From a virus, in IMG/VR virus record IMGVR_UViG_3300043664_000003, positions 1 to 21,619 of that record: a stretch of 21,619 nt of DNA. One strand, given 5' to 3'. This document shows, in pieces, positions 3,255 through 21,613 of the stretch. Every line of letters starts with the position of its first letter. Position 1 is the first letter of the stretch. The position numbers and the translations under genes are program-made. The notes below the pieces were generated by a model. It was not told the DNA's origin. It saw only the letters and a list, made by a program, of their open reading frames with translations, and ran no database searches.

Positions 3255-3443
3255 ATGCACATCCAAGTGAAACGTGGTTTCGTCATCCGCGACCCGCTGA
3301 CGAAAACGTATATCCCATTGGAGGGGTTGGACGTCCCGGACGCTGACCTGTTCTACGCGCGCCGGCTGGCTGAGGGCAGCGTTGAAATTGCTGAATCGGC
3401 AATCCCTCGTGACGCGGCCAAGCAGGAGCAGAAAAAATCATGA
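3255..3443 (+). CDS. DUF2635 small tail protein (Mu gp38-like)
   Basis: A 62-residue protein with the DUF2635 pattern: an early KRGFVIRDPLTKTYIP strand pair, then PLEGLDVPDADLFYARRLAEGSVE, where the xRRLAdG stretch is the family hallmark. The last 15 residues are charged. It has a good ribosome binding site (AAGGGG) and overlaps the sheath gene by four bases (ATGA), so it is probably coupled to sheath translation. In Mu the equivalent gene also lies directly before the sheath gene L. Its molecular function is not established; a role in sheath or tail assembly is inferred from this constant pairing. Confidence 0.85.
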   Translation: MHIQVKRGFVIRDPLTKTYIPLEGLDVPDADLFYARRLAEGSVEIAESAIPRDAAKQEQKKS

Positions 3444-4927
3444 TCCCATTCAAACGAATCCCCGAAAACCTGCGCACGCCGCTCTTTTACGCGGAAATCG
3501 ACCCGTCGCACGCGAACACGGCCCAGGTGAGCCAGCGCGCGCTGATTATCGGCCAAATCATCGCCGGCGTCGGTATCGCTACGCCCAATATCCCGACGAT
3601 TTCGCAAGGTCCGGCCGATGCGAGGGTGCAGGGTGGGCCCGGATCCATGCTCGCGCGCATGGTGGCGGCATACGCCAAAAATGACAGCTTCGGCGAGCTT
3701 TGGCAGTTGCCGCTCGCCGATCCGGTCACGACTGCAGCAGTCGGTTCGATCAACCTCACTGCGCCCGCCACGGCACCGGGCACACTCAACCTCTACATTG
3801 CCGGTACGCGCGTCCAAATGGGGGTCACGGGCAGCCAGACGGCAGTGGCGCTTGCTACCGCGCTCGCTCTCGCCATCAACGCCGCCGTGGACCTTCCCGT
3901 GACCGCCGCGGTGAATGGCAGCGTCGCGACCACAGTCGATCTGACAGCGAAGAACGTCGGCGCGCTTGGCAACGACATCGACATCCGGACGAATTTTCAA
4001 GGCAACGCCGGCGGCGAGGCCTTGCCGGCGGGCATGGCGATCACGATCGTCCCGATGGCAGGGGGCACCACCAGTCCGTCCTTGACCACGGCGCTCGCGA
4101 ATCTGATGGACATGCCCTTCGATTTCATTGTCATGCCGTACACCGATACGACTTCGCTCGATGCGATGAAGGCGTTTTTGAACGACACCGCGGGCCGGTG
4201 GTCCTGGGCGGTGCAGGTGTACGGGCACGTATTCTCCGCCTACCGGGGAAACTACGCCGCGCAGGTGACGCTCGGCTCCGGGCGAAACGATCAGCACGCC
4301 TCGATCCTCGGTTTCTACGACTCGCCGACATCGGGCCCGGAATGGGCGGCGGCGATGGCGGGCGCCGCCGCCGTGAGCCTGCGCGCCGATCCCGGCGTGC
4401 CGCTACAGACGCTCGCGCTCGAAGGCGTGCTCGCGCCGCCCCTTGCGAGCCGCTTCCCGCTCTCCGAGCGTAACACGCTCCTCTATGACGGCATTTCGAC
4501 CTATACGGTCGCGACCGATGGCACGGTGCAACTGGAAAACGTAATCACGACCTATCGGCTCAACACCTTCGGTCAGCCTGATAACAGTTACCTCGAAATC
4601 GAGACGATGTTCCTCTTGGCCTTCGTGTTGCGGTTCCTCGCGATCCGCATCACGAGCAAGTTCTCGCGCGTGAAACTCGCAGCCGATGGCACGAGGTTCG
4701 GCCCCGGTTCGAACATCGTCACGCCGGCGATCATCAAGGCCGATCAGATCGCAGCCTACGGCGAGCTCGAGTTCAGGGGCATGGTGCAGAGAGCCGATCT
4801 CTTCGCGAAGAACATCATCGTGGAACAGAACGCGACGAACCCGAACCGCGTGGACGTACTTTGGGCCGGAACGCTGATCGATCAACTGCGCATTTTCGCG
4901 CTGCTCGCTCAGTTCCGCCTGAATTAA
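3440..4927 (+). CDS. L: Contractile tail sheath protein (Mu gpL-like)
   Basis: A 495-residue sheath subunit that polymerises around the tail tube and contracts to drive the tube through the envelope. The start (IPFKRIPENLRTPLFYAEID) is the usual sheath N-terminus. The conserved C-terminal core contains the R-N-T-L-L-Y-D-G motif (about residues 345-352), then YRLNTFGQPDNSYLEIETMF and a closing RVDVLWAGTLIDQLRIFALL strand that joins neighbouring subunits. Residues about 95-210 (LYIAGTRVQMGVTG, LTAKNVGALGNDIDIRTNF) form an insertion domain that would sit on the outer face of the sheath. The ATG overlaps the DUF2635 stop. The tube gene follows 24 bases downstream. Length is typical of Mu-like sheaths. 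Confidence 0.95.
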   Translation: MIPFKRIPENLRTPLFYAEIDPSHANTAQVSQRALIIGQIIAGVGIATPNIPTISQGPADARVQGGPGSMLARMVAAYAKNDSFGELWQLPLADPVTTAAVGSINLTAPATAPGTLNLYIAGTRVQMGVTGSQTAVALATALALAINAAVDLPVTAAVNGSVATTVDLTAKNVGALGNDIDIRTNFQGNAGGEALPAGMAITIVPMAGGTTSPSLTTALANLMDMPFDFIVMPYTDTTSLDAMKAFLNDTAGRWSWAVQVYGHVFSAYRGNYAAQVTLGSGRNDQHASILGFYDSPTSGPEWAAAMAGAAAVSLRADPGVPLQTLALEGVLAPPLASRFPLSERNTLLYDGISTYTVATDGTVQLENVITTYRLNTFGQPDNSYLEIETMFLLAFVLRFLAIRITSKFSRVKLAADGTRFGPGSNIVTPAIIKADQIAAYGELEFRGMVQRADLFAKNIIVEQNATNPNRVDVLWAGTLIDQLRIFALLAQFRLN

Positions 4928-11395: not shown

Positions 11396-12541
11396 ATGCC
11401 GTTCCCGCGTCCATCGCTCACCGAAATCCGCAATCAAGCCGCGGCAGATGTTTCATCAAATCTGCCCGGCGCCGATGGACTCCTGCGATTTTCCAACATG
11501 CAAATTCTGGCCACGTCCTTGGCCGGCATGATATACGAGGAATACGGCTACACGGACTGGATTGCGCTCAATGCGGTCCCCTTCACTGCGACGGCCGAAT
11601 TCCTCGAAGGTTGGGCGGCGCTGCGCGACGTGTTCCGCTTACCGCCATCACCCGCAATCGGCACAGTCACGTTTACTGGCACGCCTGGGGCCTCCATACC
11701 GGCCGCTACAAGGCTCTCGCGCGGCGATGGCTACGCATACATCACGAACACCGATGCGACGGTTGGCGGAAGCGGTACGGTCACGGTAGCTGTAACGGCG
11801 GTGCTACCGCCAATCGACCCGACGAACAATCCAGCCGGCAACGGCGCGCTTGGCAACATGGACGCCGGGACCGCGCTGACCCTCGCCAATGCGGTGACCG
11901 GCGTGCAATCGTCCACAATCGCGGCAAGCACCTTCACGGGCGGCGTTGACGTTGAGACCGATGACAGCATGCGCGGGCGGATGCTGCTTGCCTACCAGAA
12001 TCCGCCGCACGGCGGGGACCGCTCTGATTACATCGTCTGGGCGCGGGAGGTGCCAGGCGTTACCCGCGCGTGGACAGTGCCGAACGGCATGGGCGCCGGA
12101 ACTGTGGTGGTGTATTTCATGATGGATGTGGCCGAATCCGCGCACCAGGGTTTTCCGCAGGGCGCAAACGGCGTGGCCACGGACGAAACGCGCGGCGGAG
12201 CGATCGCAACGGTGGACCAGCTCGCTGTCGCCAATTACATCTATGGCGTGCAGCCAGTGACAGCGACGGTGTACGTCTACGCCCCGGTTGCGGGCGCAGT
12301 CGATTTCACGATTCACGGCATCCCCGGCGCGAGCGCGGCGACGAAGGCTGCGATTTCGGCTGCGATCGCCGGCGTGTTCGCGCAGTACGGCGCGCCTGGC
12401 GGCGTCGTGGATTTGTCCTACCTTGAGAGCGCGATCGGCGCCGTGCCCGGCACGACAGGATTTATCATCACGACACCGGCCGGGAACGTAGCGAGCGCAG
12501 TCGGTGCAATTCCAACCGTCGGCGCCATTACGTATCTATGA
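11396..12541 (+). CDS. Baseplate J-like protein (Mu gp47-like)
   Basis: A 381-residue baseplate wedge component of the Baseplate_J family (T4 gp6 relatives), which forms the ring joining hub to fibres and transmits the contraction signal. Features: the opening FPRPSLTEIRNQAAADVSSN, a helical arm with ILATSLAGMIYEEYGYTDWI, the gp47 motif TFTGTPGASIPAATRLSRGD, a core with DDSMRGRMLLAYQNPPHGGD and REVPGVTRAWTVPNGMGAG, and the last strands VVDLSYLESAIGAVPGTTGF. The start has GGAGA 9 bases upstream. The stop overlaps the gp48 ATG. Length is typical (Mu gp47 about 360). Confidence 0.93.
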   Translation: MPFPRPSLTEIRNQAAADVSSNLPGADGLLRFSNMQILATSLAGMIYEEYGYTDWIALNAVPFTATAEFLEGWAALRDVFRLPPSPAIGTVTFTGTPGASIPAATRLSRGDGYAYITNTDATVGGSGTVTVAVTAVLPPIDPTNNPAGNGALGNMDAGTALTLANAVTGVQSSTIAASTFTGGVDVETDDSMRGRMLLAYQNPPHGGDRSDYIVWAREVPGVTRAWTVPNGMGAGTVVVYFMMDVAESAHQGFPQGANGVATDETRGGAIATVDQLAVANYIYGVQPVTATVYVYAPVAGAVDFTIHGIPGASAATKAAISAAIAGVFAQYGAPGGVVDLSYLESAIGAVPGTTGFIITTPAGNVASAVGAIPTVGAITYL

Positions 12542-13137
12542 GCACGCCGAATCTCTCCAACGCGGATTTTACGGCAGCGCTGCTCGCGCTCCTACCGCGC
12601 GGCCGCGTCTGGCCAAGAGACATGGACTCGGTGCAGGCGTGCGCTGTCAGCGCCTTCGCGCCAACGTTCCAGCGGCATCTGGCCGGCCTCGCGGCGCTCT
12701 TAGTCGACGCGTTCCCCGCCACGAGCGTTTTTCTCCTGCCGGAGTGGGAAGCAACGCTCGGACTGCCAGATCCGTGCTCTGGGCCGCAGCCGACCCTCGC
12801 GCTTCGCCGCGCGCAGGTGATGGCGCGGCTCTTCGATCCGGGTGGGCAGTCGGTGTCCTATTTGATCGCGGCGGCCGCGGCACTCGGTTACACCATCACG
12901 ATCGACTATCCGGCAACGCCATTTCGGGTGGGTCACTCGCGCGCTGGAGATGAACTTTTCGGGCCGGCTTGGGTGCACGCGTGGCGCGTCAACGCACCGG
13001 CAGTGACCGTGCGCGAATTCAGAGCGGGACAATCCGCCGCCGGCGAGCCGTTGCGCTATTGGACGAATGCAATCCTGGAATGCGAATTACGCGCGCTCGC
13101 GCCGGCGCACACCGTCGTACAGTTTTCATACTCGTAA
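12538..13137 (+). CDS. Tail protein gp48-like (DUF2313 family)
   Basis: A 199-residue protein of the Mu gp48 family (T4 gp53-/P2 gpI-like role in completing the baseplate wedge). Motifs: ADFTAALLALLPRGRVWPRD at the start, a helix with FQRHLAGLAALLVDAFPATS, then LLPEWEATLGLPDPCSGPQP and ALRRAQVMARLFDPGGQSVS, which are the family's most conserved parts. The C-terminal half is beta-rich (FRVGHSRAGDELFGPAWVHA) and ends LECELRALAPAHTVVQFSYS. ATG 12538 overlaps the gp47 stop. It lies last in the baseplate group and directly before the fibre genes, as in Mu. Confidence 0.92.
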   Translation: MSTPNLSNADFTAALLALLPRGRVWPRDMDSVQACAVSAFAPTFQRHLAGLAALLVDAFPATSVFLLPEWEATLGLPDPCSGPQPTLALRRAQVMARLFDPGGQSVSYLIAAAAALGYTITIDYPATPFRVGHSRAGDELFGPAWVHAWRVNAPAVTVREFRAGQSAAGEPLRYWTNAILECELRALAPAHTVVQFSYS

Positions 13138-13148
13138 GGAGTCCCATC

Positions 13149-13664
13149 ATGTTCAGAATCGATGATGCGAGCGCGCAAGGCTCACTTCCCGCCCCGGAAG
13201 CCGCTGGCGCTGAGGCCTATTTCACCGAGGGGAATCCGATTGGCCCGGTGCCAGCTACGCCCGTGCGCGCATCCTGGCTCAATATGATCCAGGAGGAATT
13301 GCGCGCGATCGTGGTGGCTGCGGCTATTATTCCTAGCAAGTCCATCTATAACCAGGTGCTGACGGCGATCAATGCGTTGATCGCTGCTATGCCCAGATTG
13401 GGTGTGGGGCAGTCGTGGCAGAATATGACCGCGAGTCGCGCAATCGCCACTGTGTACACGAATACGACGGGCGGGCCGATTATGCTGAGCATCAATGTCA
13501 ATGAGGCGAGTTTTAACACACTGGTCGTGGGAGGCCTTACGGTAGTGAACACTACCCTTGATGCGAATGCGGGAAGCTATCAGATAACGAGCGTTATTCC
13601 GAATGGGACGTCCTATTCAATGGGAACCCCGGGGACTATTCTTTCATGGTTTGAACTTCGGTAG
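13149..13664 (+). CDS. Short tail fibre-like protein
   Basis: A 171-residue protein. The N-terminal half has the usual adsorption-protein pattern: MFRIDDASAQGSLPAP, YFTEGNPIGPVPATPVRASW, then LNMIQEELRAIVVAA and a helix SIYNQVLTAINALIAAM. The second half is a compact beta domain (VGQSWQNMTASRAIATVYTN, TTGGPIMLSINVN), a repeated C-terminal module in many phage fibres. It is short for a fibre, so it may be a baseplate-attached stub or a second receptor protein alongside the large spike. ATG 13149 has AAGGAG 9 bases upstream; the in-frame start further upstream would overlap gp48 by over 150 bases. Two consecutive TAG stops end the gene. Confidence 0.82.
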   Translation: MFRIDDASAQGSLPAPEAAGAEAYFTEGNPIGPVPATPVRASWLNMIQEELRAIVVAAAIIPSKSIYNQVLTAINALIAAMPRLGVGQSWQNMTASRAIATVYTNTTGGPIMLSINVNEASFNTLVVGGLTVVNTTLDANAGSYQITSVIPNGTSYSMGTPGTILSWFELR

Positions 13665-14281: not shown

Positions 14282-17200
14282 ATGCCAGCCATCACCCTCA
14301 CTGATCTGAACAACGCCAAGATCGATGTTGACGATTGGAAAGAATTCATGACGTCGGCGAGTCCGACGTACACCGACCGTCTGGGGAATGTCAGGCCGAC
14401 GCTCGTGGCGCTTCAAGTTGAGTTTCCAAACGCCTCGGCCAATGCGGCAGCGGCAGCGGCGAGCGCGGCCACAGCGACGGAGGAGGCAGCCATTGCGATT
14501 GCGCAGGCTGTGTTGGCGACTACCAACGGAGTGGCACAGGTAGTGCTGGCTGCGACACAGGCCGATCTCGCTGCGACGAACGGAGCGACGCAAGTAGCGC
14601 TTGCAACTGTGCAGGCGGGGCTTGCCACTACCAACGGAGCGGCACAGGTAGATCTTGCAACCATACAAGCAGGGTTGGCCACAACGAACGGGGCTGCGCA
14701 GGTGACATTGGCGACGGCCGCAAAGACCGCTGCCGAGGCTGCACGCGATGCATCGTTCGTGACCGGGCCGAAGTATGCGACTGAGGCGCTAGGCCGAGCC
14801 GCCGTCGCGGACGGCGTGAATTTCATGGTGCAGGGCAACGGCACGGACATCGCTGCCTACGAGTATAGGCGGACGAACAGCACGACATCGGTGCTCCTGA
14901 CCACATACCCCAGCGTCGCGGCGCTCATTATTGCCTCCTACGCCGAATCCTCGCTAATGCCTCCTGCACTGATCAATAAGGGACTTACGCTCAGTTCGCT
15001 GTGGGGATGGCTCTCCAAAATCTATGACGTTGGCGTGAATCTGTTCGATGCCAGTCGGACGACCGCGGGCCAGATTCCCAACTCGACGGGCACTACGGGC
15101 GGCAGCGGCACGTTTAGCACTTCGCACCTGATCCCCGTAACACCTGGAGTTGACTACCGGCGCACATCCGGCGGCGCAGGCGAGTATCTGCAATGGTTCG
15201 ATATCAACGGCGCCTTTCTCTCCGCCGTCATTGGCACAACACCACTGACAGCCCCTGCCGGCGCGTTTTGGGCGCGCACGTCGGTAAGCACGGCTGCGGC
15301 CGGCAGTTTCATGTTCACGGAAACGAGCAAGTGGCCCGCCGCGTACACCGCGTTCAAGCGGACGCTCAAGATAGCCAATAATCCTATCCCTTCGTTTGCC
15401 GAATTGACGACGGCAGATCCTAGCGTGATCCCGACCGGCGTCACCCTGAGTTCCGTATGGAGTTTGATCAGCCGGCTCTATGTCACTGGCGCCAATCTGT
15501 TCGACGTTTCCCGCGTCGTTCCACTCAGTATTACAACCGTGACAGGCGGCGTATCTGTGCATGGATCGGCTGGCGTGTCGCACCTCATGCCGGTAACGCC
15601 GGGGGTGGACTACAAACGCTCACAATCCGGAGTCGGGTGGTACCTGCAATGGTTCACGATCGATGGCGCCTTCATCTCTGCCGACACCACCCAAACCGCA
15701 ACGGCCCCCGCTGGTGCGTTTTGGGCGCGGATGTCCTTTGGAAGTGGCGGGGCGAACGGAATGTTTACCGAGACGGCCAAGTACCCCGCTGTATTCGCCG
15801 CGTTCCAGCGTTCGCTGCGCGCAGTGCTGAATGTCGAAAAAACCGCGCTCGACCCAAATCAACGTAGCTCCGCCTACAAGCCAACCACGCATGGGCAAAT
15901 GCTCGACTATGTGGGCACCAAGATCGCACCTCAGACGAATCTTTTCGATAAGTCGCGGGTGACACCTGGTGCGTATCTGAACGCCACCGGAGGCACTAGC
16001 GTAAGCGCGAATTATGCAGTGTCACATATGATCCCGGTCGTGGCTGGCACTTCCTATGTGTCCACGCAAGCGTGGATTGCCGTGACGCCGGTCGGTGGGG
16101 AAAACGTGCAGTGGTTCGATGCTGACGGCAATTTCTTGTCGTTCTTGGCGGCACCGCAGACTTCGCTCACGGCCCCGGCTGGGGCGGCGTTTGCGCGAGT
16201 GAGTGTGATCAACACAGCGCTGAACTCGGCGACGTTCATGCCAGGCACCGCCATGCCGACGCGCTATTGGCCCTATGAGGAAGCCATCGCGCGCACAGCC
16301 TTGCCGCGAAGTGTCAGGCCAGACGTGCAGGTTTTGAGTCTCCCGCTGACGCAAGCAGACCGCATAGCGGACAACGGTGGCACGGTGTTGTCTGGCACCC
16401 TGGGTGTCGATGCCGCGATCTCCATACCATTTGAGTTTAAGCTCCCAACGGTCATTGAGTTTGATTTTAAGCTTCCTGTCGACATCCATTCGGGCGTAGG
16501 TGAGAGAGTGCTGGCGTCATTGACCGCTGATGGCAATGTTGGAGCGCCAAATCTTCAAGTCGGCATCAACTCAGTGGCCCCCACCACGCAAGCGTATGTG
16601 CCGCTATACCACTCAACTTTTTTTATTGGGGTCATTGGTTACGGTAAATACTATGGGACCGAAGCTGCTATTCAAAACGTGCTCGATCGCAGTTTGAACG
16701 GGCCCGTCGCCTTTTCTCTGCGTAAAGTGGTACCGACCGCTGCCGATGTCACCATCACCCTTGAGGTGACGGCCGCGCAGGTTCGATTGTTCGATGGCGG
16801 CACGACCCTCGGCGCATGGACGTTTGCGGCCTATCCTACCGTCACCGCGCTGATCTCACAAATGGCCACGGCCCTGGGCGCTGCCTATGTGGTCACCGCC
16901 TACGGCTCTGACGGCGTTGCCAGTACCGCGTTGGCGAGGTTCACGGCCTACGTGTGCAAATCGCAGACTGGGTGGGATGTGCTGACGAATCTCACGACAG
17001 GCGTCACGGTGTACGACAGTTATGAGGTTTTTGTTCCTGTCGTGGATTTCCAGAAGTGGCACAAAATGACGCTTGAGTTCACTTTGGTTGCCACGAATGT
17101 TGTCGTCAAACTGTATGTGGATAACATCCTGTGCTTTGGCGATCTTTCGTGGGCATTTGGGGCACTAACATTGGCGGAAGTACGCAACACCCTGTATCTG

Positions 17201-17968
17201 AACAAATCAACAGCAGGCACGGACGTTTATCTCAACGCCCCGACGCAGAACCTGAAAATTCACCACGACGCCGCGCCGAGAGCGCGGTTCATCGCGGTGA
17301 TGAATCACACGTACATCGATGGCCCGGAGCAGGACGGCGTTGCTCCTGGCGGTGTCAGCCTAACCATGACATCGGGGCGTTTGCGGCGATTCATTATTGC
17401 TGCGAAAGCAAACGGCTGGAAGTTCATCACCATGCGCGACTTCCTCCAAATGCAGAACGGTCTGATGCCTGCTCAGGATAAGAGCATCGTCATGACGACG
17501 GACGATAGCAAATTCGGGTATGACGATGTGCCTGGGTGCCGTCAGGTGTGTGACCAGAATGAAATTAAGCAAACGACGGCCATTATTTCCTCAGCGTTCA
17601 ATTTCGCAACAAACCAAACGCTGCTGAACAGGGTGATGTCGGATGGGAATGCCATCGCCTATCACGGGTATCACCACATCATCACAGAGAACATAACCTA
17701 CGCTCAGTTCGTGGCCGAAATGGCATCAGCGCGTTCGACGTTTTCTGCTGCGGGGTACAAGTCCGGCGTAGCAATATACCCGTATGGCTCAGTGACTCCT
17801 GCGCAGCGTCTGTGGTATCGCAACAACGGTTTTACCGTTGGATTTTTGGCTACGGCGGGACTTTCTTCAGTCGTTCGCACCTTTGGAGAAAACCCGATGA
17901 ACATTGGGCGTGGCATGTTCGATGACGAAGCGCTTTGGGCGCCGATATTGGCAACGCTGCAACAATAG
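14282..17968 (+). CDS. Large tailspike with C-terminal polysaccharide deacetylase (NodB/CE4-like) domain
   Basis: A 1228-residue host-recognition protein, seen in order as: a baseplate-attachment N-terminus (ITLTDLNNAKIDVDDW, TYTDRLGNVRPTL); four 18-residue repeats at 78-149, a probable trimeric stalk; three tandem repeats of about 150 residues starting NLFD-SR at 253, 405 and 553; a beta-rich region at about 700-995 resembling a concanavalin/LamG fold; and a deacetylase at about 1000-1228. The deacetylase has the strand FIAVMNHTYIDG, motif 1 as TTDDS (Asp1074, Asp1075; usual TFDDG), motif 2 as HGYHH (His1128, His1132; usual HSxxH) and motif 3 as YPYG (1166-1169). Overall order resembles PgaB/IcaB. 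It probably removes acetyl groups from a capsule or exopolysaccharide. The usual first-motif Phe and Gly are replaced, so activity is likely but unproven. The ribosome site is modest (AGAGAG). Confidence 0.88.
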   Translation: MPAITLTDLNNAKIDVDDWKEFMTSASPTYTDRLGNVRPTLVALQVEFPNASANAAAAAASAATATEEAAIAIAQAVLATTNGVAQVVLAATQADLAATNGATQVALATVQAGLATTNGAAQVDLATIQAGLATTNGAAQVTLATAAKTAAEAARDASFVTGPKYATEALGRAAVADGVNFMVQGNGTDIAAYEYRRTNSTTSVLLTTYPSVAALIIASYAESSLMPPALINKGLTLSSLWGWLSKIYDVGVNLFDASRTTAGQIPNSTGTTGGSGTFSTSHLIPVTPGVDYRRTSGGAGEYLQWFDINGAFLSAVIGTTPLTAPAGAFWARTSVSTAAAGSFMFTETSKWPAAYTAFKRTLKIANNPIPSFAELTTADPSVIPTGVTLSSVWSLISRLYVTGANLFDVSRVVPLSITTVTGGVSVHGSAGVSHLMPVTPGVDYKRSQSGVGWYLQWFTIDGAFISADTTQTATAPAGAFWARMSFGSGGANGMFTETAKYPAVFAAFQRSLRAVLNVEKTALDPNQRSSAYKPTTHGQMLDYVGTKIAPQTNLFDKSRVTPGAYLNATGGTSVSANYAVSHMIPVVAGTSYVSTQAWIAVTPVGGENVQWFDADGNFLSFLAAPQTSLTAPAGAAFARVSVINTALNSATFMPGTAMPTRYWPYEEAIARTALPRSVRPDVQVLSLPLTQADRIADNGGTVLSGTLGVDAAISIPFEFKLPTVIEFDFKLPVDIHSGVGERVLASLTADGNVGAPNLQVGINSVAPTTQAYVPLYHSTFFIGVIGYGKYYGTEAAIQNVLDRSLNGPVAFSLRKVVPTAADVTITLEVTAAQVRLFDGGTTLGAWTFAAYPTVTALISQMATALGAAYVVTAYGSDGVASTALARFTAYVCKSQTGWDVLTNLTTGVTVYDSYEVFVPVVDFQKWHKMTLEFTLVATNVVVKLYVDNILCFGDLSWAFGALTLAEVRNTLYLNKSTAGTDVYLNAPTQNLKIHHDAAPRARFIAVMNHTYIDGPEQDGVAPGGVSLTMTSGRLRRFIIAAKANGWKFITMRDFLQMQNGLMPAQDKSIVMTTDDSKFGYDDVPGCRQVCDQNEIKQTTAIISSAFNFATNQTLLNRVMSDGNAIAYHGYHHIITENITYAQFVAEMASARSTFSAAGYKSGVAIYPYGSVTPAQRLWYRNNGFTVGFLATAGLSSVVRTFGENPMNIGRGMFDDEALWAPILATLQQ
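14513..14728 (+). repeat. Four 54-bp repeats in the tailspike stalk
   Basis: Four in-frame copies of a 54-base unit encode an 18-residue motif close to LATTNGAAQVxLATxQAG, at tailspike residues 78-95, 96-113, 114-131 and 132-149. The copies are diverged at DNA level but keep their period exactly. The Leu/Ala/Val spacing suggests a coiled-coil or triple-stranded stalk. Copy number may vary among relatives. Confidence 0.85.
15038..16285 (+). repeat. Three tandem lectin-like domain repeats in the tailspike
   Basis: Three homologous segments begin at 15038, 15494 and 15938. Each starts NLFD-SR and goes on through S-HLIPVTPG-Y or a variant, a QWF-DG-F stretch, a TAPAGA-WAR or TAPAGAAFAR stretch and a closing aromatic/Pro motif. 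Units are spaced 152 and 148 residues. DNA has diverged clearly, so the duplication is old. The fold is probably a carbohydrate-binding beta sandwich; binding is inference. Confidence 0.85.
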
Positions 17969-18792: not shown

Positions 18793-19170
18793 ATGTATGA
18801 CACGAAAACATTGTCCATCCTCTCCGCCGCGCGGTTGGGGATAGCGCTCATTGGTGCCGTCATGGCGGCGTTAGCGCACCACATTGACGCAGGTGCCCTG
18901 CAAACCCTCGACATCGCCACTGGAGCGTTTCTAGTTGCGCTCATGGCAGCATGGGGGCAATGGAATGTGCATCAAGTCGAGACGGCGGCGAAGGCGCGCG
19001 AGGTGGTCGCCCTACGAGTCGGACAGGCTATCGCTGACGGTACCGCCGGTCCGACCCCGCTTGCCGCTGCGTCCGAAGTGCCGGCGCTGATCAAGATCAT
19101 CGCGCCTAAACTGCCGCCGGTTGATTCGTTGCCAGATGCGGTTCCCAATCCGCTGGCGGGGCACACATAG
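18793..19170 (+). CDS. Holin-like protein, paralogue of the gene at 19912
   Basis: A 125-residue protein with two predicted membrane helices (about 10-28, LSAARLGIALIGAVMAAL; about 41-58, IATGAFLVALMAAWGQW), then a conserved soluble tail: REVVALRVGQAIADGTAGPT and ALIKIIAPKLPP. The helix pair resembles the Pam3 gp28-type putative phage holins. The protein at 19912 has the same layout and the same tail motif (AD-T-GPTPLA, ALIK--AP), so the two are paralogues. A holin would make the inner membrane permeable at lysis; one of the pair could be an antiholin. It has a good ribosome site (AGAGGA). Function is inferred from layout and neighbours. Confidence 0.75.
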   Translation: MYDTKTLSILSAARLGIALIGAVMAALAHHIDAGALQTLDIATGAFLVALMAAWGQWNVHQVETAAKAREVVALRVGQAIADGTAGPTPLAAASEVPALIKIIAPKLPPVDSLPDAVPNPLAGHT

Positions 19171-19481: not shown

Positions 19482-19915
19482 TCACCTCCCGCAGCACCGC
19501 GGATCTCTCGCCGCAGACGCAGAAAAAGGCGGACGAGCTGGTGAGCCTGTGCGCCGGCACCGGCATTGACCTCCTCATTATCAGCACCTACCGAGACCTC
19601 GAGGCGCAGGCCGCGCTCTACGCGCAGGGGAGAACCACGAAGGGCCGTATCGTCACCAATGCCCGGCCTGGCATGAGCTATCACAACTGGCGCGTGGCGT
19701 TCGACGCCATCGCGATCATCAACGGCAAGGCATTGTGGCGCGTCAGAAACGACGACCGCACGCTCACGACGCAATGGCGGGCCGTGGTTGATCTCGCGAA
19801 GGGGATCGGCCTCGAGACCGGCGCTGATTGGTCGAGTATCACGGACGACGACCATTTTCAATTTACCGAGAGCATCACGCTCGCGCAGTTTCAGAGCGGC
19901 ACGGCAGCAGCATGA
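19478..19915 (+). CDS. Endolysin, M15 family L-alanyl-D-glutamate peptidase type
   Basis: A 145-residue peptidase that cuts peptide bonds in peptidoglycan. It shows the phage M15 (VanY-like) pattern: GIDLLIISTYRDLEAQAALY, then TKGRIVTNARPG and the zinc motif SYHNWRVAFD (His69, Asp76). The second zinc site is DDDHFQF (His126). All expected metal ligands are present. There is no signal peptide or membrane helix, so it needs a holin to leave the cytoplasm. I start at ATG 19478, overlapping the previous stop; the in-frame start at 19382 would cover the tiny ORF upstream and give an atypical Arg-rich lead. Its stop overlaps the second holin-like gene. Confidence 0.92.
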   Translation: MITSRSTADLSPQTQKKADELVSLCAGTGIDLLIISTYRDLEAQAALYAQGRTTKGRIVTNARPGMSYHNWRVAFDAIAIINGKALWRVRNDDRTLTTQWRAVVDLAKGIGLETGADWSSITDDDHFQFTESITLAQFQSGTAAA

Positions 19916-20250
19916 ACGACACTGAAATCCTGCAAGGTCAGATCCGCACAGCGCTCGCGCTGATCGCCGGCGCTCTTGCCGCGCACGGCTTCTTGTCCAA
20001 CGTCGCGGCCACTGAGATTCTGGGCATCGCAACGGCCATTATTCCCATTGCGTGGAGCGCCTACAGCAAGATACTGGCTAGGCGGCGGGTTGCTCTCGCG
20101 CTCAACGTCGGCTTCGTCGTCGCCGACGCCACGGTTGGACCGACACCGCTTGCCTCGCCTGAGAAGGCCGCCGCGTTGATCAAAGCGGTCGCACCGTCGA
20201 TACCGGCAGTCATTCCCGCAGCGCTATCACCGATGGAGGTAAATCCATGA
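19912..20250 (+). CDS. Holin-like protein, second copy (Pam3 gp28-type)
   Basis: A 112-residue protein with two membrane helices (about 11-28, IRTALALIAGALAAHGFL; about 33-52, ATEILGIATAIIPIAWSAY), a basic turn (KILARRR) and the soluble tail ALNVGFVVADATVGPTPLAS with AALIKAVAPSIP. Helix order and tail match the protein at 18793. ATG 19912 overlaps the endolysin stop. In this family, short N-terminus and two helices suggest a class II-like holin with both ends in the cytoplasm. Together the two paralogues flank the endolysin, so an effector/inhibitor pair is plausible. The call is by family layout, not experiment. Confidence 0.78.
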   Translation: MNDTEILQGQIRTALALIAGALAAHGFLSNVAATEILGIATAIIPIAWSAYSKILARRRVALALNVGFVVADATVGPTPLASPEKAAALIKAVAPSIPAVIPAALSPMEVNP

Positions 20251-20519
20251 AACGTCTTTTCGCCGCGCTCCTCTGGCTGGTGCTATCGGCGTGCTCGGTG
20301 ATCGCGACGAAGGACATTGACCAGGCGATTAGCCTGGCCGAAGCCGCGAACGACACCGAGGGGATCGCGTGCCTCCAGTCCCAACGCCTGATCTTCGGCG
20401 TCGAGTCGATCGGGCTCTTTACGATTGCGGAGCAGGCAAGGCTGATGCAGCGAGCGCTCGTCATCTGCACGGGCGTAATACCGCAACTGCCGATGCCAAT
20501 AGGGGGAGGCCAACAATGA
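20247..20519 (+). CDS. Small lipoprotein of the lysis region
   Basis: A 90-residue protein with a clear lipoprotein signal: KR, a hydrophobic core (LFAALLWLVL) and lipobox LSAC with Cys16, so the mature protein is 75 residues and lipid-anchored. The mature part is helical (IDQAISLAEAANDTEGIACL, IAEQARLMQRALVICTG) with two more Cys at 42 and 74 that could form a disulfide. It lies where an outer-membrane spanin subunit would be found, but it lacks the Pro-rich stretch of typical Rz1, and no Rz-like partner is obvious. It has a strong ribosome site (GGAGG) and an overlap with the previous stop. Spanin function is a guess; lipoprotein status is well supported. Confidence 0.8.
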   Translation: MKRLFAALLWLVLSACSVIATKDIDQAISLAEAANDTEGIACLQSQRLIFGVESIGLFTIAEQARLMQRALVICTGVIPQLPMPIGGGQQ

Positions 20520-21613
20520 AAGTCGAGTTCAAATCGCCCCTCGATGCGCGAGAGATTGCAGAGGGCAAGTGGAAGTTACTCAACCCGCTCAAGTGGACTG
20601 TGACGAACGACGACGGGAGCACCATTGACCTGGAAGCGCCGGCAGATTTCGAGACGGACTTTTGCAGCGTGCCGCCGCCGTTCGAGAAGATCGCCAACAA
20701 AGCCGGAGCCGCCCACGACTACGCATATAAGGTTCACAGGAAGCCGCGCGCCTGGTGCGACGTCATGCTGCGCGCCGCGGTGATCGCCTGCGGGTATTCG
20801 GATGAGACGGCGGAAGCGTTTTATCTCGCGGCGCGCGCCTTCGGGCACTCGCACTATGGCTATATCCCTGACCTCATGGACCGGCGCGATCTGGTCTACA
20901 GCGTCGAGCGGCCGGTCCCGGCGCCGCCGATGGTGGACCTGCGGCCACTGTGTCCGAACGTCTACGACCAGGGGCAACTTGGTTCGTGCGTAGCCAATGC
21001 GATCGCCGGCGCCATGCACTTCGACCGCATGAAGCAACACCTACAGCCATCATTTATTCCAAGTCGCCTGTTCACATACTTCAACGCCCGCGCAATGGAG
21101 GGGACCGTCAATTCCGACGCCGGCGCCCAGATCCGCGACGGCATCAAGAGCGTGGCGCAGTACGGCGACTGTCCGGAGGCGGCGGTTGATGGGTTTCTGG
21201 GTTGGAACTATCGGATCCGTGACTTCATGATGAAGCCCTCGAAAATTTGCTACGAGCAGGCGCTGCGATACACGGCGGTGCAGTACGCCAGGGTCGAGCA
21301 GAACCGGGATGCGATGCGGCAGTGTCTTGCCCAGGGCTATCCGATCGTGTTTGGCTTTTCGGTGTACGACAGTTTCGAAGCAGCAGACGTCGCGCGCACC
21401 GGCGTAGTGCCGATGCCGGGTGCGCAGGAGCGGCTCCTCGGCGGGCATGCCGTCCTGGCCGTTGGCTACGACGACGCCACGGGCAGGGTGATCGTGCGCA
21501 ACTCCTGGGGCCCGGGCTGGGGAATGGACGGGTACTGCACCATGCCCTATGACTACCTCGAGGACACGAACCTCGCGGCGGACCTGTGGACGATCCGGTT
21601 GATTGCGGCTTAA
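20516..21613 (+). CDS. DUF1353 domain fused to a papain-like (C1) cysteine protease
   Basis: A 365-residue two-domain protein. Residues about 10-115 form a DUF1353 domain: ADFETDFCSVPPPFEKIA, AAHDYAYKVHRKPRAWCDVM, and YLAARAFGHSHYGYI. A Pro-rich linker (VERPVPAPPM) leads to a papain-type domain at about 138-365: YDQGQLGSCVANAIAG with oxyanion Gln152 and catalytic Cys158 in papain spacing, GGHAVLAVGYDD with His311, and VRNSWGPGWGMDGYCTMPYD with Asn329. The catalytic set is complete. No signal peptide and no C1 propeptide are visible. ATG 20516 has a very strong ribosome site (GGGGGAGG); the in-frame start at 20369 lies inside the lipoprotein gene. Role is unknown: lysis, virion maturation or cleavage of a host protein are all possible. 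Confidence 0.88.
   Translation: MKVEFKSPLDAREIAEGKWKLLNPLKWTVTNDDGSTIDLEAPADFETDFCSVPPPFEKIANKAGAAHDYAYKVHRKPRAWCDVMLRAAVIACGYSDETAEAFYLAARAFGHSHYGYIPDLMDRRDLVYSVERPVPAPPMVDLRPLCPNVYDQGQLGSCVANAIAGAMHFDRMKQHLQPSFIPSRLFTYFNARAMEGTVNSDAGAQIRDGIKSVAQYGDCPEAAVDGFLGWNYRIRDFMMKPSKICYEQALRYTAVQYARVEQNRDAMRQCLAQGYPIVFGFSVYDSFEAADVARTGVVPMPGAQERLLGGHAVLAVGYDDATGRVIVRNSWGPGWGMDGYCTMPYDYLEDTNLAADLWTIRLIAA

Follow-up and report, generated by a model that had tools for sequence, protein, structure and literature searches.

Does a long protein encoded behind the baseplate genes of an uncultivated virus end in an enzyme, and what would that enzyme do to the surface of the host? Phage enzymes that alter glycans decide host range and are in use against biofilms, and most of those known cleave polysaccharide chains or take off O-acetyl groups.

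A tail fibre gene in a Mu-like tail cassette

The window, that is, the whole stretch of DNA analysed, is a virus record of 21.6 kb, a fragment of a Mu-like myophage that includes its tail cassette. The following genes were located in it.

3440-4927: tail sheath gene
11396-12541: Baseplate_J gene
12538-13137: Mu Gp48-like gene
ending at 13664: collar-fibre-type gene
14282..17968, + strand: tail fibre gene of 1228 aa, 3' of the baseplate genes and the tail-collar-type fibre gene

The 1228-aa open reading frame, whose codons run to 17965 and whose stop codon is 17966-17968, occupies the tail-fibre position of the cassette and is followed by lysis-type genes, including one for a VanY-type peptidase. 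The closest tail sheaths found in genomes were 67% identical (a Pseudomonadota MAG) and 64% identical (Paraburkholderia), and the host is probably a burkholderial or related proteobacterium. Two similar small proteins, encoded at 18793-19170 and 19828-20250 on either side of the VanY-type endolysin gene, have the motif VG..(I/V)AD.T.GPTPLA in common and are possibly holin-like. At 20414-21613 lies a gene for a papain-type cysteine protease fused to a DUF1353 domain, as identified with Pfam; in the phage that carries the near relative described below (L123), a DUF1353 protein adjoins a separate protein that is papain-like by eye, without a Pfam match.

Upstream of its C-terminal domain, the fibre protein was divided as follows.

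14282..14431, + strand: N-terminal virion-attachment segment, aa 1-50, assigned by likeness to the N-terminus of the VarioGold tail spike
14429..14776, + strand: Ala-rich repeats forming a coiled-coil-like stalk, aa ~50-165, by direct reading
15020..15397, + strand: repeat module R1, aa 247-372, from a three-repeat alignment
15473..15826, + strand: repeat module R2, aa 398-515, from the same alignment
15917..16297, + strand: repeat module R3, aa 546-672, from the same alignment
16391..17281, + strand: domain of ~300 aa, aa 704-1000, common to the L123 protein at 42% identity

Over residues 1-47 the protein shares 48% identity (E=3e-4) with the N-terminus of a protein of Variovorax phage VarioGold that is annotated as a tail spike, and residues 78-135 gave a low-complexity match to proteins of Pseudomonas phages UNO-SLW that carry a tail-fibre annotation. 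The ~300-aa domain, LamG/concanavalin-like by eye, had no match in Pfam or among PDB sequences. With phmmer, chains of botulinum neurotoxin also matched weakly (E~0.01); this was dismissed as chance, with support from neither Pfam nor fold. The preliminary description of this DNA had called the protein a tailspike; no pectate-lyase-like (beta-helix) family was matched in the family searches, and tail fibre seems the better term for a protein of this fibre-like, multidomain build.

R1 to R3 are related modules of ~120 aa each that match phrog_11541. In the fibres of three other phages (Klebsiella phage YX3973, Staphylococcus phage EW and Streptococcus phage Javan585) modules of this type are followed by an SGNH/GDSL esterase domain. 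No SGNH/GDSL domain was matched in the 1228-aa protein. Because the modules precede SGNH esterases in those other fibres, the NodB domain here looks like a swap, taking the enzyme slot that SGNH holds in the related proteins.

A NodB2-type domain at the C-terminus

The last ~227 residues of the fibre contain the features listed below, with residue roles proposed after the CE4 mechanism (PMC5855634).

17285..17965, + strand: NodB2-type (PgaB/IcaB-like) CE4 deacetylase domain, aa 1002-1228, from PF01522, AF2 with Foldseek, and the L123 relative at 50%
17306..17308, + strand: H1009, an MT5-type His on the N-terminal strand and proposed general acid, within NHTY 1008-1011, from alignment with IcaB-like proteins
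17495..17509, + strand: motif 1, TTDDS 1072-1076, with D1074 the proposed base and D1075 a proposed metal ligand, both Asp invariant in 28 sequences
17663..17677, + strand: motif 2, HGYHH 1128-1132, with H1128 and H1132 proposed metal ligands, both His invariant in 28 sequences
17777..17788, + strand: motif 3, YPYG 1166-1169, resembling the NodB2 form AYPYG, which has its Arg outside the motif, from alignment and PMC10967932
17909..17911, + strand: R1210, which may be the active-site Arg that is displaced in NodB2 enzymes, kept in L123, from a by-eye alignment

A NodB/CE4 polysaccharide deacetylase had been proposed here from the letters alone, at coordinates that proved right, and with a search against PF01522 (Polysacc_deac_1) as its check. 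That profile matched the domain alone with 43.9 bits (E=2.9e-11) and the whole protein with 39.9 bits (4.9e-10), the curated Pfam cut-off being 23.1 bits. An HMM made from 26 other viral CE4s, leaving out the window protein and its relative, scored the real domain at 25.5 bits versus at most 7.8 in 2000 shuffles, and the motifs in their order, with loose spacing allowed, arose in 7 of 200,000 composition-preserving shuffles. The proposal of a C-terminal deacetylase domain was thus borne out by both profile and shuffle controls.

TTDDS, HGYHH and YPYG all lie at the residues first reported, and the early His that had been pointed to is H1009, which in an alignment with IcaB-like proteins stands opposite the His of VLQYHH. 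D1074, D1075, H1128 and H1132 are invariant across 28 aligned viral CE4s. Motif 1 is a variant, TTDDS as against TFDDG, that retains both Asp residues and reads TTDDN in L123. The Ser/Thr that follows the first His of motif 2 is missing, being Gly in the window domain and Ala in L123; Gly is usual at this position in the aligned IcaB-like bacterial proteins, where HG..H is common. This is a common variation that does not exclude the domain from CE4. By the same kind of evidence D1075, H1128 and H1132 would be expected to meet in one metal site. R1210 falls close to the Arg of the IcaB/PgaB 'PR' motif in the by-eye alignment.

An AlphaFold2 model of the domain based on the 28-sequence alignment reached pLDDT 72 and pTM 0.74, with low confidence at domain residues 9-29 and 188-216; a model from two sequences (pLDDT 38) was set aside. 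Foldseek against the PDB ranked IcaB 4WCJ first (E=1.5e-9, TMq 0.73, rmsd 5 A), followed by AaPgaB 4U10 and PplD 6DQ3, then by E. coli PgaB 3VUS and 4F9J, with BpsB 5BU6 at rank 16. Nearly all significant PDB fold matches were CE4/NodB-fold deacetylases, so that the predicted fold is of the NodB type and no other. The best of these matches are circularly permuted enzymes, and the model has a strand, E2-7, directly before H1009, as in the MT5-first order of the permuted enzymes. Non-permuted CE4s made up most rows of the alignment, and the leaning towards permuted PNAG deacetylases was therefore not built into the input.

NodB2 enzymes have MT5 (VLMYH) first and MT3 of the form AYPYG, and draw their Arg from elsewhere (PMC10967932). 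The window domain reads, in order, AVMNH (with H1009), TTDDS, HGYHH and IYPYG, with R1210 as the candidate Arg. The Pfam score, the fold search and this motif order together support assignment to NodB/CE4 and, within it, to the NodB2 (PgaB/IcaB-like) subtype; the preliminary description, too, had called the domain PgaB/IcaB-like. The PgaB equivalog model TIGR03938 gave 18.1 bits, far below its cut-off of 321.9, and the domain is therefore PgaB/IcaB-like rather than PgaB.

Relatives of the domain

A profile scan of IMG/VR recovered one other phage lineage with the domain, L122/L123 (3300025011_001471 and 3300024999_000128), two records only, which encode a 568-aa protein near a terminase gene, with the gene sequence identical in the two. 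The L123 protein is 50% identical to the window protein in the CE4 domain, 42% in the ~300-aa domain and 46% over the whole two-domain unit. It keeps H1009, D1074, D1075, H1128 and H1132; its motif 2 reads HADVH and its motif 3 is degenerate (YSSG). Besides that motif, it differs from the window protein in its length, in being without the repeats, in its N-terminus and in its gene neighbourhood. The pairing of the ~300-aa domain with CE4 in both proteins indicates that the two domains travel as a unit.

Searches with the single sequence turned up no relative among phages, viral contigs or genome contigs, nor in 17 genomes with a related tail sheath, and only the profile scan was successful; across phages, plasmids and sampled genomes there was none beyond L122/L123. 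Genomes of the Paraburkholderia order (300), of its phylum (398) and of the Azospirillum class (289) contained remote CE4s at most. Of 50 records searched for PF01522, 47 carry a related baseplate gene and none gave a match; within this sample the domain is therefore not an ancestral feature of that tail group.

More distant CE4 domains were seen in other viral proteins. L126 (4212-6446) encodes an apparent phage tail protein, a 745-aa open frame with a CE4 domain and weak tail-protein PHROG matches, whose relative among the PHROGs, phrog_28468, bears the label minor head protein. The TM7 (Saccharibacteria) phage gene CQ476_49 (L127, 2147-3682) encodes a 511-aa CE4 protein and lies beside pectate-lyase-type tail genes. 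A 1698-aa tape-measure protein (L140, 1547-6640; the same protein is in L142) combines a canonical CE4 with an SLT lytic transglycosylase domain and is possibly a tail-delivered peptidoglycan deacetylase. Very large proteins of two further viral contigs (L133, 2-4912; L152, 2-7609) carry CE4 with endolysin-type domains. Two CE4 matches labelled 'Bacteriophage sp.' (L158, L159) were dropped because their surroundings, inspected by eye, contain no phage genes, and the many other CE4 matches in the phage collection, being unannotated fragments, were left out.

Proposed function and comparison with known systems

We propose, with a probability of roughly 0.65, that this is a tail fibre tipped by a NodB2-type CE4 domain that deacetylates host surface polysaccharide at adsorption. 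Computation supports the homology, the fold subtype, the motif set, the conservation of the catalytic residues, the two-domain unit and the fibre position; the metal, the activity, the substrate and the part played in adsorption are proposed from these. The N-terminus would join the fibre to the virion, the Ala-rich stalk and the three repeat modules would extend it, and the CE4 domain would sit at its tip. We infer that the repeats and the ~300-aa domain, a probable glycan-binding domain, bind the surface polysaccharide at adsorption. Homology points to a divalent metal, coordinated by D1075, H1128 and H1132, that would polarise the acetyl group, to D1074 as activator of water and to H1009 as proton donor. 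The tip would in this way strip acetyl groups; the NodB2 fold makes it most likely that these are N-acetyl groups, on a polymer of the GlcNAc type or of another amino sugar. The glycan would then be modified, or a receptor exposed, with the chain left uncut, which is the job of the SGNH esterases in other fibres. This suggests a virus that trims the sugar coat of its host chemically, not by cutting.

Three other explanations were weighed. The domain might be a catalytically dead NodB fold serving as a lectin-like receptor-binding tip, which we regard as unlikely. CE4 pseudoenzymes do exist: structures of BA3943 are among the fold matches, and BA0330 and BA0331 are reported inactive (PMC4505593). 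The loss of motif 3 in L123, the only near relative, and the lack of the motif 2 Ser/Thr in both proteins mean that the domain may work slowly, or may be a remnant that serves for binding. Against this, the four motif 1 and 2 residues and the MT5 His have been kept at just 50% overall identity, the window copy retains YPYG, and bacterial enzymes of the IcaB type often have HG..H.

Less probable again is an active CE4 that, in the manner of the SGNH fibres, would remove O-acetyl groups from capsule or O-antigen instead of working as a de-N-acetylase. The fibre does have the R-modules that accompany SGNH domains, and acetylxylan esterases are among the CE4 members (PMC5855634); these esterases, however, rank under IcaB and PgaB in the fold search, and NodB2 has so far been tied only to de-N-acetylation of poly-beta-1,6-GlcNAc (PNAG) (PMC10967932). 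A peptidoglycan deacetylase at the tail tip, aiding penetration of the cell wall, would recall the CE4 and lytic domains found together in the tape-measure and virion lysin proteins of other viral contigs (L140, L152), but it is very improbable for a domain that ends a multi-module fibre with a tail-spike-like N-terminus, whose fold neighbours are PNAG enzymes and not PgdA/PdaA, and with a separate VanY-type lysin gene in the window.

The deacetylating fibre tip being the preferred reading, a wider proposal may be put forward tentatively, at somewhat worse than even odds: that some phages infect by means of a fibre NodB2 de-N-acetylase acting on PNAG-like or amino-sugar exopolysaccharide, changing the charge of the polymer to engage or pass it, in a second and chemically distinct deacetylation strategy able to replace SGNH in the same architecture. 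If true, a tail-borne member of the PNAG-deacetylase class would add N-deacetylation to phage glycan chemistry. It would also provide a small and testable domain, with modules that show how fibres exchange enzyme tips.

With PgaB, IcaB and BpsB the window domain has in common the predicted fold and topology, the MT5 His on the N-terminal strand, the DD and HxxxH motifs and, it seems, a motif 3 of the (A)YPYG form without Arg. Those proteins, in contrast, are cellular enzymes of PNAG synthesis with 13-20% identity to the window domain, which ends a phage tail fibre. The characterised tail deacetylases are SGNH esterases (G7C gp63.1, Possum gp66, Aristophanes gp41 and Klebsiella prophage fibres), so that the literature agrees with the earlier view that tail deacetylases are mostly of this type. 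They resemble the window fibre in their proposed biological role and in the repeat module common to related SGNH fibres, but their fold and chemistry are unrelated, a serine esterase acting on O-acetyl versus a predicted metal-dependent NodB enzyme.

A search for literature on CE4 with phage tail depolymerases, outside of which lay subscription journals and preprints, found none. The L126 protein, that of CQ476_49 and a minor tail protein of Arthrobacter phage Mudcat, the last CE4/NodB-like by fold, have such a domain in or beside tail genes; they are of other subtypes, with no sequence kinship beyond fold, and no published activity was found for any of the three. Only one virion NodB deacetylase was found in the literature, the turret head protein gp31 of HFTV1, an archaeal tailed virus, which has a NodB-like deacetylase domain with bound Zn on the capsid (PMC12494034). 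Like the window domain, it is a C-terminal NodB-like domain of a virion protein that follows a predicted carbohydrate-binding domain, with the motifs TIDD, HGYNH and YPSG; unlike it, it is on capsid turrets and not on the tail, is non-permuted (closest to 3RXZ) and has no detectable BLAST similarity to the window domain. In view of HFTV1 and of the apparent tail proteins with CE4 domains, a virion-borne CE4 has precedents; what is new, as far as found, is a fibre tip of the NodB2 subtype in company with modules associated with SGNH.
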